From Arcobacter nitrofigilis DSM 7299 (GTDB taxonomy: Bacteria > Campylobacterota > Campylobacteria > Campylobacterales > Arcobacteraceae): 64,000 nucleotides of DNA. Shown here one piece after another: positions 16,196-22,860 of the stretch. The notes below the pieces were generated by a model. It was not told the origin of the DNA, did no database searches, and was given only the letters and a program-made list of their open reading frames with translations. Made by a program: the position numbers and the translations under genes. Numbering within the stretch: the stretch's first letter is position 1; each line of letters starts with the position of its first letter. The stretch spans positions 248,001 through 312,000 of the forward strand of contig NC_014166.1 in NCBI RefSeq assembly GCF_000092245.1. Reading direction: 5' to 3'.

Positions 16196-18367
16196 TTAGA
16201 TTTCAATGGAAAATATTGCACCATGGTGTGAATTCTTAACACTTATTGTTCCATTCATTTTTTCTTCAATAATCATTTTTGTCATATATAATCCAATACC
16301 TGTACCATAGTCATATTTTGTAGTGAAGTAAGGGTCAAAAATTTTATTTATAATAGTATCATCGATTCCACCTGCATTATCTTCAATATGTAAGCATAAC
16401 TTTTCATTTTTTTGAGCATAAATTTTTATTTGTGGATTTTGGATATTCTTTTCCAATAAAATATCTTTTGCATTTGATAATATGTTCATAATTGCTTGAG
16501 AATACTCATTTTTATAACCATCAATTTTATAATCTTCTTCGATATTAATAATAAGTTCTATATGGTGAAAGGTAAGAGTGGATTTTACTATTTTTAGTGC
16601 ATTATCTATTGCTTCATTTAAATAAAAGAGTTCTTTTTTTGAATTTGGATTAAAAAAATTTCTAAAATCATCAATTGTTTTTGACATATATTCAAGTAAA
16701 TCATTCGCTTCATCAACTCTATTTTGAAGATATTTTTTATCTAATTCTTTATAATCATAAGCAGATTCAATATCAAAAAATAATCCTGAAACTTGAGATA
16801 AAGGTTGTCTCCATTGGTGGGCAATATTACCTATCATTTCACCCATTGCTGCCATTTTTGATTTTTGGATTAATATATTTTGCTGTTTGATTTTTTCTTC
16901 TTTTAGAAGTGTTCGCTCTGTAATATCCCTCAAAGAAGCAAATAGTAAATTTTGGTTTTCATATGAATAGATAATTGCATTTAGTTCTATAGTTCTTGTT
17001 TGTTTATCTTTTGTAAATAATTTTACTGTTTTAACTAAAGATTTTGATTGTTTAATCTCTTCTAAACTCAATTGATCAAATAAGTTAAAAAAGTCTTTAT
17101 ATAATATTTCACTTGACTCATAACCTATAGTTTTAAGGGCAGTACTATTTAGACTTAAAATACGAGTACTATTATTGATTATTTCAGAGATTATAAAACC
17201 ATCATTACTATAGTTAAAAAGTAAGGCATATTTCTCTTCATTTTGTTTAACTCTTTTTCTATATTGATTAAAAAGCTCTTCTATCTTTCTTGTAAAAAGT
17301 AAGGAAAAAAAGAAAAAAACTATAGTCATAACTATAATGATGATGATTAGTTTTATTATGTTTTTGTAAAGGTTATCCAGAGATATTTTAGTCTCTTTTT
17401 TTACTATTTGATTGATATTTGATAGATTTACTCCAACTGCTATAAAATACCTATACTCTTTGATATATGTAGCATAAAAAAGCTTTTGGTTATAGTCATA
17501 ATAAGTTGCTTCATTTGCCTTATAATTTGTTTTTATAAGAAGTTCTTTTATTGCTTCAAGCTCTTTATTTGAAGTTATTATGTTTTTTTGTATTAGAAGT
17601 TTACTTTTATGCATAATATCAGTTAAACTATTTATTTTATAAATAAAAATAAACTCATCATTATTGAAACCTTGCAAGGTGATTTTTTTTAGAAGTTTAT
17701 CTGTTAGTTCCACATGATTACTCTCTAAATTACTTGCAGAACCTATTATTAGCCCCAATTCTTTTAGATGTCTTGAATAAGTGATTCTTTTGTTTGGTCT
17801 GTACCAATTATAGTCTAAGAAGTTTTGAGTATTGGGATTTGCATTTATCATTTTATTTATAAACTTTACCCCATCCAAATCTTCAAAATCAAGGAAATTT
17901 ATTCCTTCATTTTTAGGATAATCAGTATTTAAGAGTAGAGTTCCTTTTGTATTTAAAATAAAGTAATTAATATCATTTTTTTCTTGGGCGATCTCTTTTA
18001 GTGATTTTTCTATTAAATCTATTTGTTCTTCTTTTGAGAGATTTTTTGAAGATTTATACAAAGAATAGGCTAGATTATATGCAATGATTGATTGGTTTTT
18101 TATTCTTTGTTTTTTACTATTTATTATCGAAAGAGATTCAAAATCTATGTCATTTTTAAGATTTTGAACTGATGTTTTAACATAAAACATCTCCCTTTCT
18201 ATTAGTGTATTTTTGAAACTTTTTATATGAGTCCTAAAATTACTATATTCAGTTTTTATAAGAACTATACCAATGATAGTTGCTACTATTAAAATAATAA
18301 TTGTAGAACTAAGTAAAGTAGTTTTTTTTATTCCTTGTTCTACTGTTTGATTGTAGTTATTTTTCAA
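16196..18367 (-). CDS. Cache-PAS sensor histidine kinase next to tct operon
   Basis: A 723-residue membrane kinase. A transmembrane segment (residues 18-38) is followed by a long periplasmic Cache-type region (40-335), a second transmembrane segment (340-362), a PAS domain (380-490), an H box (NIAHQWRQPLSQVSG, near 515) and an HATPase domain with NILSNAKDIL, DNAGGID and GTGIGLYM motifs. Cache domains bind small carboxylates and amino acids. The gene overlaps its response regulator by 11 bp and lies just beyond tctCBA, so the likely job is sensing a carboxylate and controlling its uptake. Confidence 0.9.
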   Translation of the reverse strand: MKNNYNQTVEQGIKKTTLLSSTIIILIVATIIGIVLIKTEYSNFRTHIKSFKNTLIEREMFYVKTSVQNLKNDIDFESLSIINSKKQRIKNQSIIAYNLAYSLYKSSKNLSKEEQIDLIEKSLKEIAQEKNDINYFILNTKGTLLLNTDYPKNEGINFLDFEDLDGVKFINKMINANPNTQNFLDYNWYRPNKRITYSRHLKELGLIIGSASNLESNHVELTDKLLKKITLQGFNNDEFIFIYKINSLTDIMHKSKLLIQKNIITSNKELEAIKELLIKTNYKANEATYYDYNQKLFYATYIKEYRYFIAVGVNLSNINQIVKKETKISLDNLYKNIIKLIIIIIVMTIVFFFFSLLFTRKIEELFNQYRKRVKQNEEKYALLFNYSNDGFIISEIINNSTRILSLNSTALKTIGYESSEILYKDFFNLFDQLSLEEIKQSKSLVKTVKLFTKDKQTRTIELNAIIYSYENQNLLFASLRDITERTLLKEEKIKQQNILIQKSKMAAMGEMIGNIAHQWRQPLSQVSGLFFDIESAYDYKELDKKYLQNRVDEANDLLEYMSKTIDDFRNFFNPNSKKELFYLNEAIDNALKIVKSTLTFHHIELIINIEEDYKIDGYKNEYSQAIMNILSNAKDILLEKNIQNPQIKIYAQKNEKLCLHIEDNAGGIDDTIINKIFDPYFTTKYDYGTGIGLYMTKMIIEEKMNGTISVKNSHHGAIFSIEI

Positions 18368-19037
18368 GATTTAGTTTGTACCCCATATTTGAAATATTTT
18401 TAATACAATTAAATGGAATCTTTTTTCGTAAAAAACCAAGGGAAGTTCGTAAAGAATTCAAACTCATATATTCTCCATCCCAGACATTTTGTTCAATCTC
18501 TTCATAAGAGACTACTCTGTTTTTGTTTAACACTAGAAGTTTCAAAAACAATAACTCTTTTTTTGTGAGATTAATTACTTGACCTTTATTATAAAATAAA
18601 GAAGTATTGTTGTCAAAATAAAATTCATCACCCAAGGTTATTTTAAAATCTTTCTCTTTTTCTAAGGCTTCTACTGCTTTTGAAAGGGCTGGAAGAAGGT
18701 TTCTACTTGTAAGGGGTTTGATGATATATTTTTCTAGGTTTAATTCAATGGCATCCAATAGATAACTTTTTTCACTAAATGCTGTTGAGATTATGATTTT
18801 TGTAGTTGTGTCTTTTTGTCTTATTTTTTTTGCTAAAGATATTCCATCAAGTTTTGGCATCTTTATATCTGTTAGAATAATATCTGGATGATATTTTTTA
18901 TAAAGCTCGTAACCTTCTTCTCCATCTTTTGCTTCGTATAGTTCATTGAACATACGATTTAAAAATCGAGAATTGATAGTTCTTACCCCTTCGTCATCCT
19001 CAATATATAAAATAGTATATTTTTTAAAATCATCCAT
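18357..19037 (-). CDS. OmpR-type response regulator next to tct operon
   Basis: A 226-residue two-domain regulator. The receiver has acidic residues in YIEDDEG, the phosphorylated Asp in DIILTDIKMPKLDG and the Lys in EKYIIKPLTS. A winged-helix DNA-binding domain follows (LTKKELLFLKLLVLNKNRVVS). It pairs with the overlapping kinase gene and lies 29 bp after tctA in the same direction, resembling the TctD/TctE arrangement beside tricarboxylate transporters, although the kinase here has a different sensor region. Its binding site was not identified. Confidence 0.9.
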   Translation of the reverse strand: MDDFKKYTILYIEDDEGVRTINSRFLNRMFNELYEAKDGEEGYELYKKYHPDIILTDIKMPKLDGISLAKKIRQKDTTTKIIISTAFSEKSYLLDAIELNLEKYIIKPLTSRNLLPALSKAVEALEKEKDFKITLGDEFYFDNNTSLFYNKGQVINLTKKELLFLKLLVLNKNRVVSYEEIEQNVWDGEYMSLNSLRTSLGFLRKKIPFNCIKNISNMGYKLNLEK

Positions 19038-20584: not shown

Positions 20585-21066
20585 TAGTTAACTCCTAATA
20601 AATTATTGATAAAGTCGCCTGCATCTATATATACACCTAAAACATTGTTTAGTAATACATAAAATCCTACAGATACCCCAACTGAAATTAAAAATATTCT
20701 TTTTATATTTCTCTCTTTTAAAATAAAAAATCCTATTGCTAAAAATATCATTGTAGAAAAGATAAAACCTAAAGGTCTTATTGTAAAACCATAAAAAATC
20801 ATTAACAAAATAAAAAACGTAGTAGTTTTTAAATCTAGACTTCTTAGATAAGTCAAAGATAGGTTTTCTTTGTTTTTTTCTAATAGTGATAAAACCAATA
20901 ATATCACTGATATAATAATTCCTGTTAATCCAATATAATAAGGAAATGTAGAAGCAGTCATAACTTCAAACTGCGCCATTGGCATCTTTTTTATACTAAA
21001 TACAGAATAAAAATAGAAACTTGAAAAAGCTAAAAAAAATATTGAGCCTATTGTATTTTTTGTCAT
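20584..21066 (-). CDS. tctB: Tripartite tricarboxylate transporter, small membrane subunit
   Basis: A 160-residue protein with four hydrophobic segments, the normal TctB build. I choose ATG 21066 because AAAGGACAACAA stands directly before it; a longer frame from 21093 has no such site. It lies between tctC and tctA and overlaps tctA by one base. The bases around its start (GGACAACAAATGA) match, with one mismatch, the complement of the linker in the two small-RNA-like units upstream of tctC, so its translation may be controlled by them. Confidence 0.9.
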   Translation of the reverse strand: MTKNTIGSIFFLAFSSFYFYSVFSIKKMPMAQFEVMTASTFPYYIGLTGIIISVILLVLSLLEKNKENLSLTYLRSLDLKTTTFFILLMIFYGFTIRPLGFIFSTMIFLAIGFFILKERNIKRIFLISVGVSVGFYVLLNNVLGVYIDAGDFINNLLGVN

Positions 21067-21107
21067 TTGTTGTCCTTTATATAAATAGAGCAAAGGCTCT
21101 ATTTATC

Positions 21108-22079: not shown

Positions 22080-22236
22080 TTTTCGTCCTTTGTTTATTTC
22101 TATTTCAATGTTAAATGAAAAAAATGTAAGAAAAATAAAATAAATATTTATTTAGAGAATTTCTTTTAAAAGGTATAAAAAACAATTACAAAAAGGAACA
22201 TAAGATTTTGATAATAAAATGAAGGGAATTTTGGGC

Positions 22237-22309
22237 AAAAAAAAAGAGGCTTCGTGGACCTCTTTTTTTAGGGAGAACAAATGAAAAAAGACGTTCGCAT
22301 TCGTCTTAT
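22237..22309 (-). ncRNA. Candidate small RNA, copy A of a tandem pair
   Basis: Read on the minus strand, a TATAAT box (22316-22321) is followed about seven bases on by a hairpin (aagacg/cgtctt, 22288-22307), a C/U-rich linker containing CATTTGTTCTCCC, and a strong terminator: an 11-bp stem (22239-22249/22259-22269) ending in nine T. The predicted RNA is about 73 nt. Box, hairpin, linker and terminator are all conserved in copy B 200 bp away while intervening sequence is not. Plus-strand reading gives only a 13-codon frame. This is inferred from structure; it matches no known family that I recognise. Confidence 0.5.
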
Positions 22310-22447
22310 AAAGAAATTATAACTGTTGATGATAAATGGATAAATAATCAAAGGTTAACAAAAAGATAACTTGACTAAAAGTTTATAAATTTGTAAAAAA
22401 TGTAGTAGGGTTTTGAAAATAGATTTTGAGTTTGTAGATTTTTGGGC

Positions 22448-22514
22448 AAAAAAAAAGAGGGTTCGCGACCTCTTTCTTTAGGAGAACAAATGAAGACGTT
22501 CGTATTCGTCTTAT
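22448..22514 (-). ncRNA. Candidate small RNA, copy B of a tandem pair
   Basis: Same layout as copy A: TATAAT on the minus strand (22521-22526), a 5' hairpin (stem 22493-22498/22507-22512), the linker CATTTGTTCTCCT, then a gagg/cctc terminator stem and nine T. Length is about 67 nt. Relative to copy A it differs by small deletions (four bases after the ATG-like triplet, single bases in the terminator loop and linker) and point changes in loops, while both stems remain paired. The linker would be single-stranded and is complementary to a GGAG-N5-ATG translation start. Confidence 0.5.
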
Positions 22515-22599
22515 AAGATAATTATAACAGCTGATAATGAATGGATAAATAATCAATAGTTAATGGATAGATAACTGATATGGAAATTATTGATAATGT

Positions 22600-22860
22600 G
22601 CTCTCTTGAAGACCTAAAGGTCTCCGCTTTTTACTTTCTTTTGTTGAAAAGAAAGTAACAAAGAAAGCAACTGCCGAATTGATGAAGGCAAAGCTTTCCT
22701 CTCTTATTGATTTTCTCTTTTCTGCCCTGCAAAACTCGCTAAAGAGTGCATTTAGCACTTTTTTTTACGCTCAGACAGTTTCGGGCTTGTTTCGAAAAGA
22801 GAAAATCAAACGTTCGGCTTCATCAAAGGCAGGATTTAGTGCCATTTAGTTCAAGTGAGA
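22600..22860. repeat. Multi-hairpin extragenic element
   Basis: A gene-free stretch packed with perfect inverted repeats: agacc/ggtct (22607-22620); a 12-bp stem ttactttctttt with its complement (22631-22642/22647-22658); 16-bp arms ttgattttctcttttc and complement (22707-22722/22794-22809); 9-bp outer arms ttgatgaag/cttcatcaa (22679-22687/22818-22826); and at the centre a terminator-like hairpin agtgc/gcact followed by eight T (22745-22766). G+C is higher than around it. The form suggests a repeated extragenic element; other copies must be sought in the genome. A 78-codon frame inside it is not believed to be a gene. Confidence 0.65.

Follow-up and report, generated by a model that had tools for sequence, protein, structure and literature searches.

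Two short units, repeated in tandem on the minus strand beside an operon for a tripartite carboxylate transporter, raise the question of what they encode, which genes their products act on and what switches them on. We addressed this question in a window of 64,000 nucleotides of Arcobacter nitrofigilis DSM 7299 (248001-312000 of the 3.19-Mb single-contig genome) and by comparison with related genomes.

Two minus-strand units and their promoter array

The minus strand of 22237-22576 consists of two direct-repeat units whose starts are spaced 205-211 bp apart. Each unit contains, in order, a TATAAT promoter, a 6-bp hairpin of the form AAGACG-loop-CGTCTT, the C/U-rich linker CATTTGTTCTCC and a terminator hairpin with a T9 run (Table 1). 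This layout had been described in an earlier note on this DNA and is borne out by the sequence and by folding z-scores of -2.8 and -2.3 for the two units against dinucleotide-shuffled controls. The same note held that the sequence lying between the units does not match. We found instead that the similarity continues for about 50 nt above the TATAAT box, in what is a regulatory array that had been overlooked: the 84-nt segment comprising the hairpin and all that lies upstream of it is 83 % identical between the units, compared to 86 % for the linker segment and 93 % for the terminator segment.

Gapless alignment of 12 promoters from 8 genomes resolves the array into four RTTAAC-N5 half-sites with an 11-bp period, the third and fourth being more variable. 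The start of the last half-site and that of the -10 box lie 16 nt apart, and TGT often precedes TATAAT. The unit promoters have no recognisable -35 element and the four half-sites stand in its place. Such a layout is that of a promoter activated by a response regulator of the OmpR/PhoB type, as established for that regulator family.

The linker had also been expected to be unpaired. This is the case for unit 2, where the predicted fold leaves it open (P unpaired 0.85-0.99), and likewise for the predicted folds of the congeners, but not for unit 1, where in the best fold the 5' arm pairs with CAUUUGUU, leaving CAUU with a P unpaired of 0.08. That fold is 1.1 kcal/mol better than the hairpin given in Table 1 and leaves the CUCC end partly open. 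Given the different exposure of their linkers in the modelled folds, the two RNA copies may be of unequal strength.

Table 1 Features of the locus and related sites (window positions; R1, promoter model described in the text)
Feature	Position or locus	Strand	Evidence
Unit 2 promoter: half-sites GTTATC, ATTAAC, ATTATT, ATTCAT; -10 TATAAT at 22521-22526	22511-22576	-	R1 59.2 bits, E=1.4e-15
Unit 2 5' hairpin AAGACG-AATACGAA-CGTCTT	22493-22512	-	folding
Unit 2 anti-start linker CATTTGTTCTCC (complement GGAGAACAAATG)	22481-22492	-	predicted unpaired
Unit 2 intrinsic terminator, T9 run; predicted RNA about 65-67 nt	22448-22479	-	sequence, folding
Unit 1 promoter: half-sites GTTATC, GTTAAC, ATTATT, ATTTAT; -10 TATAAT at 22316-22321	22306-22371	-	R1 54.6 bits, E=3.9e-14
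Unit 1 5' hairpin AAGACG-AATGCGAA-CGTCTT; rivalled by fold pairing the linker	22288-22307	-	folding
Unit 1 anti-start linker CATTTGTTCTCC (complement GGAGAACAAATG)	22272-22283	-	predicted mostly paired
Unit 1 intrinsic terminator, T9 run; predicted RNA about 71-73 nt	22237-22269	-	sequence, folding
tctB start site GGACAACAAATGA, target named by the earlier note; non-specific match	21063-21075	-	pairing compared to background
htrA loci with the box	L121, L126, L139, L153, L306, L310, L317		Arcobacteraceae and two other families

R1, a model of the 66-nt promoter built on sequence alone, was run against 104 Arcobacteraceae genomes and matches 68 of them at E<=1e-3 and 58 at E<=1e-6. At E<=0.1 the number rises to 91 genomes, about ten of which are expected by chance, and we therefore rely on the two stricter thresholds. 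R1 finds three strong units in the A. nitrofigilis genome, the tandem pair included. The third, at about 377.8 kb (G000:C1), has a flagellin-like gene on one side and a truD-like gene on the other. The upstream region, a GTTCTCC linker and a terminator are what it has in common with the pair, and little else.

Three further elements of this genome are worth recording. A possible fourth unit lies on the minus strand at about 1480-1700 of locus L081 (G000:C1, about 1850.4-1850.6 kb), where TCTCCT and an intrinsic terminator accompany a small hairpin and two TTAAC half-sites. On the minus strand of locus L085, ATTAAC-N5-ATTAAC...ATTAAA and TATAAT are found upstream of an ORF (1202-1486) for a 94-aa small secreted protein, a possible further regulon member. 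The element of about 230 bp at window 22600-22850 folds, as RNA, into a long hairpin of -85 kcal/mol and is dispersed in the genome, with seven copies, often in inverted pairs, in a 400-kb sample; one copy adjoins the sRNA pair in all three congeners.

A multicopy RNA family in Arcobacteraceae

In the Arcobacteraceae set, 90 of the 97 distinct promoter hits run into an intrinsic terminator, yielding RNAs of 65-130 nt with a median of 116; the hits without a terminated RNA are mostly at htrA genes. A strict anti-Shine-Dalgarno word (TTTCCTT, TCTCCT, CTCCTT, TTCTTCC, CTCCC or TTCTCC) is found in 85 of the 90 terminated RNAs, compared to 8.1 expected from dinucleotide shuffles. Tandem pairs are common, since two promoter hits occur at 14 loci, and the members of the family occupy many unrelated gene contexts.

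The 5' hairpins comprise 61 distinct self-complementary stems, such as AAGACG/CGTCTT, AGTAAACG/CGTTTATT, GTAGATGAAG/CTTTATCTAT and TGAGTAA/TTACTCA, and their loops often keep GCGAA. A MAFFT alignment put the stems one base out of register and we consequently listed them RNA by RNA instead of counting pairs. Read from the stems of each RNA and not from a single formal alignment, the differences between them are compensated changes. GCGAA recurs in 5' hairpin loops (for example at window 22493-22512), in second hairpins and in terminators, though the stems differ.

Promoter and -10 box, anti-Shine-Dalgarno stretch and terminator of homologous units are conserved in dozens of relatives' genomes, and the stems are compensated. 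As judged from these shared sequence features, the pair belongs to a large multicopy sRNA family spread through Arcobacteraceae. The comparison thus gives good support to one half of the earlier note's reading, duplicated trans-acting sRNA genes with a linker that covers the ribosome-binding site, and not to the other half, tctB as the target.

Outside Arcobacteraceae, 15 genomes match R1 at E<=1e-3, where about 0.35 are expected. Among these matches are at least seven RNAs with stretches of the CUCCUUGU type, a gene resembling Spy/CpxP and, in three genomes that represent two other families, htrA. This weaker evidence suggests that the family extends to other families of Campylobacterales. 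The same array is followed by RNAs in L241, L307, L308, L314 and L315, which belong to further families of the order; these RNAs carry repeated CUCCUUGUU/CUUCCUUGUU stretches, some of which sit in the loops of one long hairpin.

At gathering score Rfam reports only tRNAs in the window and no family in the loci of eight relatives, and the Arcobacter sRNA literature that we searched holds no matching description. Most of the 38 intergenic regions of Arcobacter sp. L that one study screened were given no name (PMC6429828), and a member of the class may have been sighted among them. Judging from Rfam and this literature, in which we found no match, the RNA family appears to be previously unrecorded.

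Predicted pairing with translation starts

The tctB start matches 12 of the 13 bases of the linker complement, as the earlier note had observed, at a site one base off from the one it gave. To place this match we used a background of 411 predicted gene starts, taken from the window and from 400 kb of sequence sampled in 20 spaced stretches of 20 kb. The tctB duplex has a predicted energy of -14.4 kcal/mol with unit 1 and -15.1 kcal/mol with unit 2, which 28 and 18 of the 411 starts, respectively, equal or beat (4-7 % of the sampled starts). GGANAACAAATG is present ten times in the genome, including the two sRNA genes and three gene starts with the exact 12-mer GGAGAACAAATG, those of a c553-type cytochrome, a hydrogenase small subunit (Tat signal) and TssB/VipA; tctB carries a one-base variant. 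The cytochrome and hydrogenase names rest on a reading of the sequence beyond Pfam domain hits.

The c553 start pairs with unit 1 at -24.5 (18 consecutive pairs) and the TssB start with unit 2 at -23.6, each beating all sampled starts for its unit, but these two starts and that of the hydrogenase were preselected by the 12-mer and their rank is no test. The third RNA of the genome, too, pairs best with the c553 start (-21.6 compared to -15.6 for the best background start). This pairing uses bases outside the 12-mer selection, is lost in congener G002 and may be taken as an additional hint at c553 as a target. On pairing potential, the cytochrome c553, TssB and hydrogenase small subunit starts are the best target candidates that we found in this genome. 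As a target conserved more widely c553 was not upheld: the pairing is kept in the three congeners and the start drifts in other genera without a matching change of the linker. A conserved target of UUUCCUUGUGUG was likewise rejected, the exact search for CACAAGGAAAC in 26 genomes returning mainly the sRNA genes themselves and no conserved perfect partner.

The linkers were also compared to controls as a class. Their mean pairing energies are -8.9, -8.7 and -7.3 with gene starts and -6.6, -6.5 and -6.3 with internal coding sequence, while shuffled linkers reach -7.2, -6.6 and -5.6 at gene starts. The pairing of the real linkers with gene starts is thus better than either control, by about 3-4 standard deviations. 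This preference argues for a generic anti-start element and not for an RNA devoted to one neighbouring gene, and tens to hundreds of partners per linker would be expected.

How do other readings of the pair compare? That the RNAs specifically tune the adjacent carboxylate transporter through the tctB start, as suggested by adjacency and near-complete complementarity, agrees with the site being retained in the only congener that shares this neighbourhood. We nevertheless consider it very improbable, given the equally good or better pairing elsewhere and the loss of the tct neighbourhood in G002, where other genes adjoin the pair; the third unit, too, lies beside the flagellin-like gene. At window 16196-19037, tctCBA is followed by genes for a histidine kinase and an OmpR-type regulator, which probably give the transporter two-component control of its own that does not depend on the sRNAs. 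Somewhat less improbable, and still doubtful, is that the RNAs titrate an RNA-binding protein through their GCGAA loops, the C/U stretch being secondary. GCGA, ACGAA or CGGA is present in 58 of 97 5' loops while the stems vary, and GCGAA reappears further along the RNAs; yet no other part of the RNA body is as constant as the anti-Shine-Dalgarno stretch, which varies between classes and still matches Shine-Dalgarno sequences. The least credible reading makes the plus strand the functional one. There, GGAGAACAAATG would be where ribosomes bind and begin a micro-ORF, giving the peptide MKKDVRIRLIKKL from unit 1 and MKTFVFVL from unit 2. The plus strand does offer a good ribosome-binding site with an ATG, but the two peptides are unlike in length and sequence, the conserved array and -10 box indicate the minus strand and the complement of the linker lacks an ATG in most relatives; the micro-ORFs were rejected as not conserved.

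A candidate activator and its known counterparts

A search of the genome with the TTAAC direct-repeat pattern gave matches upstream of an operon for a CpxP-like protein, an OmpR-type response regulator (G000:C1:663053-663727) and a histidine kinase (L040) and upstream of a gene for an EptA-like lipid A phosphoethanolamine transferase (L045), the latter box having only two to three half-sites. Among the Arcobacteraceae orthologues, at least three of the four RTTA half-sites at period 11 are found upstream of 26 of 28 usable regulator operons, compared to at most 2 of 28 for each of the remaining periods between 6 and 16 and for the other strand. Array and -10-like box are spaced as they are at the sRNAs. 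In 25 of the 28 loci, the small gene that separates the array from the regulator encodes LTxxQ, the hallmark of the CpxP/Spy family; the A. nitrofigilis protein scores 16.0 bits against 24.3 for Pfam PF07813.

The strong sRNA promoter occurs in 58 of 86 genomes with a close orthologue of the regulator and in 0 of 18 without (Fisher 4e-8, a value inflated by shared descent and genome reduction, as the genomes are not phylogenetically independent). The same box precedes htrA/DegP in two Arcobacteraceae genera, with three genomes from the first and one from the second. At the A. nitrofigilis htrA the box is weak, with 5.3 bits and three half-sites in register, yet it is the best-scoring place in 400 kb. 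Taken together, the shared boxes and the co-occurrence suggest that the activator of the sRNAs is most likely the OmpR-type regulator beside the CpxP/Spy-like gene, and we infer that its operon is autoregulated. With an OmpR-type domain and 113 bits against the cut-off of 341 for the CpxR equivalog (NF008199), the regulator reaches no NCBIfam equivalog cut-off and is accordingly named Cpx-like and not CpxR.

The same mechanism could be served by another response regulator, of the CprR or PhoB type or a TctD-like one beside tctCBA. Several OmpR-type regulators use 11-bp direct repeats, and shared boxes and co-occurrence are what ties the Cpx-like regulator to the sRNAs. Such a substitution is unlikely, however, given arrays of the right period and spacing at nearly all Cpx-like operons, the absence of strong sRNA promoters where that regulator is absent and the occurrence of sRNAs away from tct. 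A Pho box was rejected because no clean array of four parts stands in register upstream of pstS.

We thus favour, as the likely reading, multicopy trans-acting anti-start sRNAs, of about 65-73 nt in this pair, driven by an envelope-stress regulator of the OmpR type in a manner resembling the CiaR-csRNA-HtrA system. It is built on architecture, conservation, co-occurrence and pairing potential, from which we infer transcription, activation, the stress signal, repression and targets. Under envelope stress the Cpx-like regulator would bind the four-half-site array at the sRNA promoters and raise the sRNAs together with the HtrA protease. Each RNA would expose, between 5' hairpin and terminator, an anti-Shine-Dalgarno stretch, in this pair extended to an anti-AUG, that would pair with translation starts and bar ribosome entry on many mRNAs. 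More tentatively, we hypothesize that Campylobacterales may have evolved a regulon of HtrA and generic anti-start RNAs independently of streptococci, lowering exported and respiratory proteins under envelope stress, with the GCGAA loops as the handle for an RNA-binding protein. Hardly any regulatory RNAs have been described in relatives of Arcobacter. If the favoured reading is true, it would provide an sRNA family whose candidate activator and pairing site are named and whose stress input can be tested, a striking parallel in a distant phylum and a second lineage in which to test the coupling of a periplasmic protease to generic anti-start RNAs.

Three known systems bear comparison. Like CprRS of Campylobacter jejuni (PMC9449129), this is an OmpR-type system of Campylobacterota tied to the cell envelope; for CprRS, the literature searched gave no sRNA regulon. 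The likeness to Cpx of Enterobacteria lies in an apparently self-regulated operon of CpxP/Spy-like protein, OmpR-type regulator and kinase and in the regulator box at both this operon and htrA/DegP, the latter weak in A. nitrofigilis. CpxR of Enterobacteria also controls sRNAs, namely CpxQ, CyaR and RprA. Unlike these, the Arcobacter sRNAs are multicopy, generic anti-start RNAs unrelated to them, and unlike Cpx the system has the gene order cpxP-R-A in one operon and a regulator that is no CpxR equivalog.

The parallel with the csRNAs of the streptococcal CiaRH regulon extends to more features. CiaR binds NTTAAG-N5-TTTAAG, with the -10 box set 10 nt past the last repeat in the published search, and turns on htrA as well as several csRNAs; in the latter an anti-Shine-Dalgarno/anti-AUG stretch lies between stem-loops, and several copies are needed for repression (PMC3091779, PMC4507080). 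The Arcobacter box, with four RTTAAC-N5 repeats instead of two NTTAAG-type ones, is not a CiaR box, and the RNAs differ in sequence, in their GCGAA loops, in the Gram-negative Campylobacterales host and in a regulator beside a CpxP-like gene. The Rfam csRNA model (RF02379) gives 21 bits against a gathering score of 57 (E=2.2), out of register with the units. For these differences we consider the RNAs csRNA-like in their working and do not file them as csRNAs. Both systems have an OmpR-type box of 11-bp direct repeats, with 16 nt from the start of the last repeat to the -10 box, several sRNA copies, some in tandem, and two stem-loops that enclose the anti-start stretch, predicted to be exposed in unit 2 and the congeners and mostly paired in unit 1; and in both, htrA shares the regulator box with the sRNAs.
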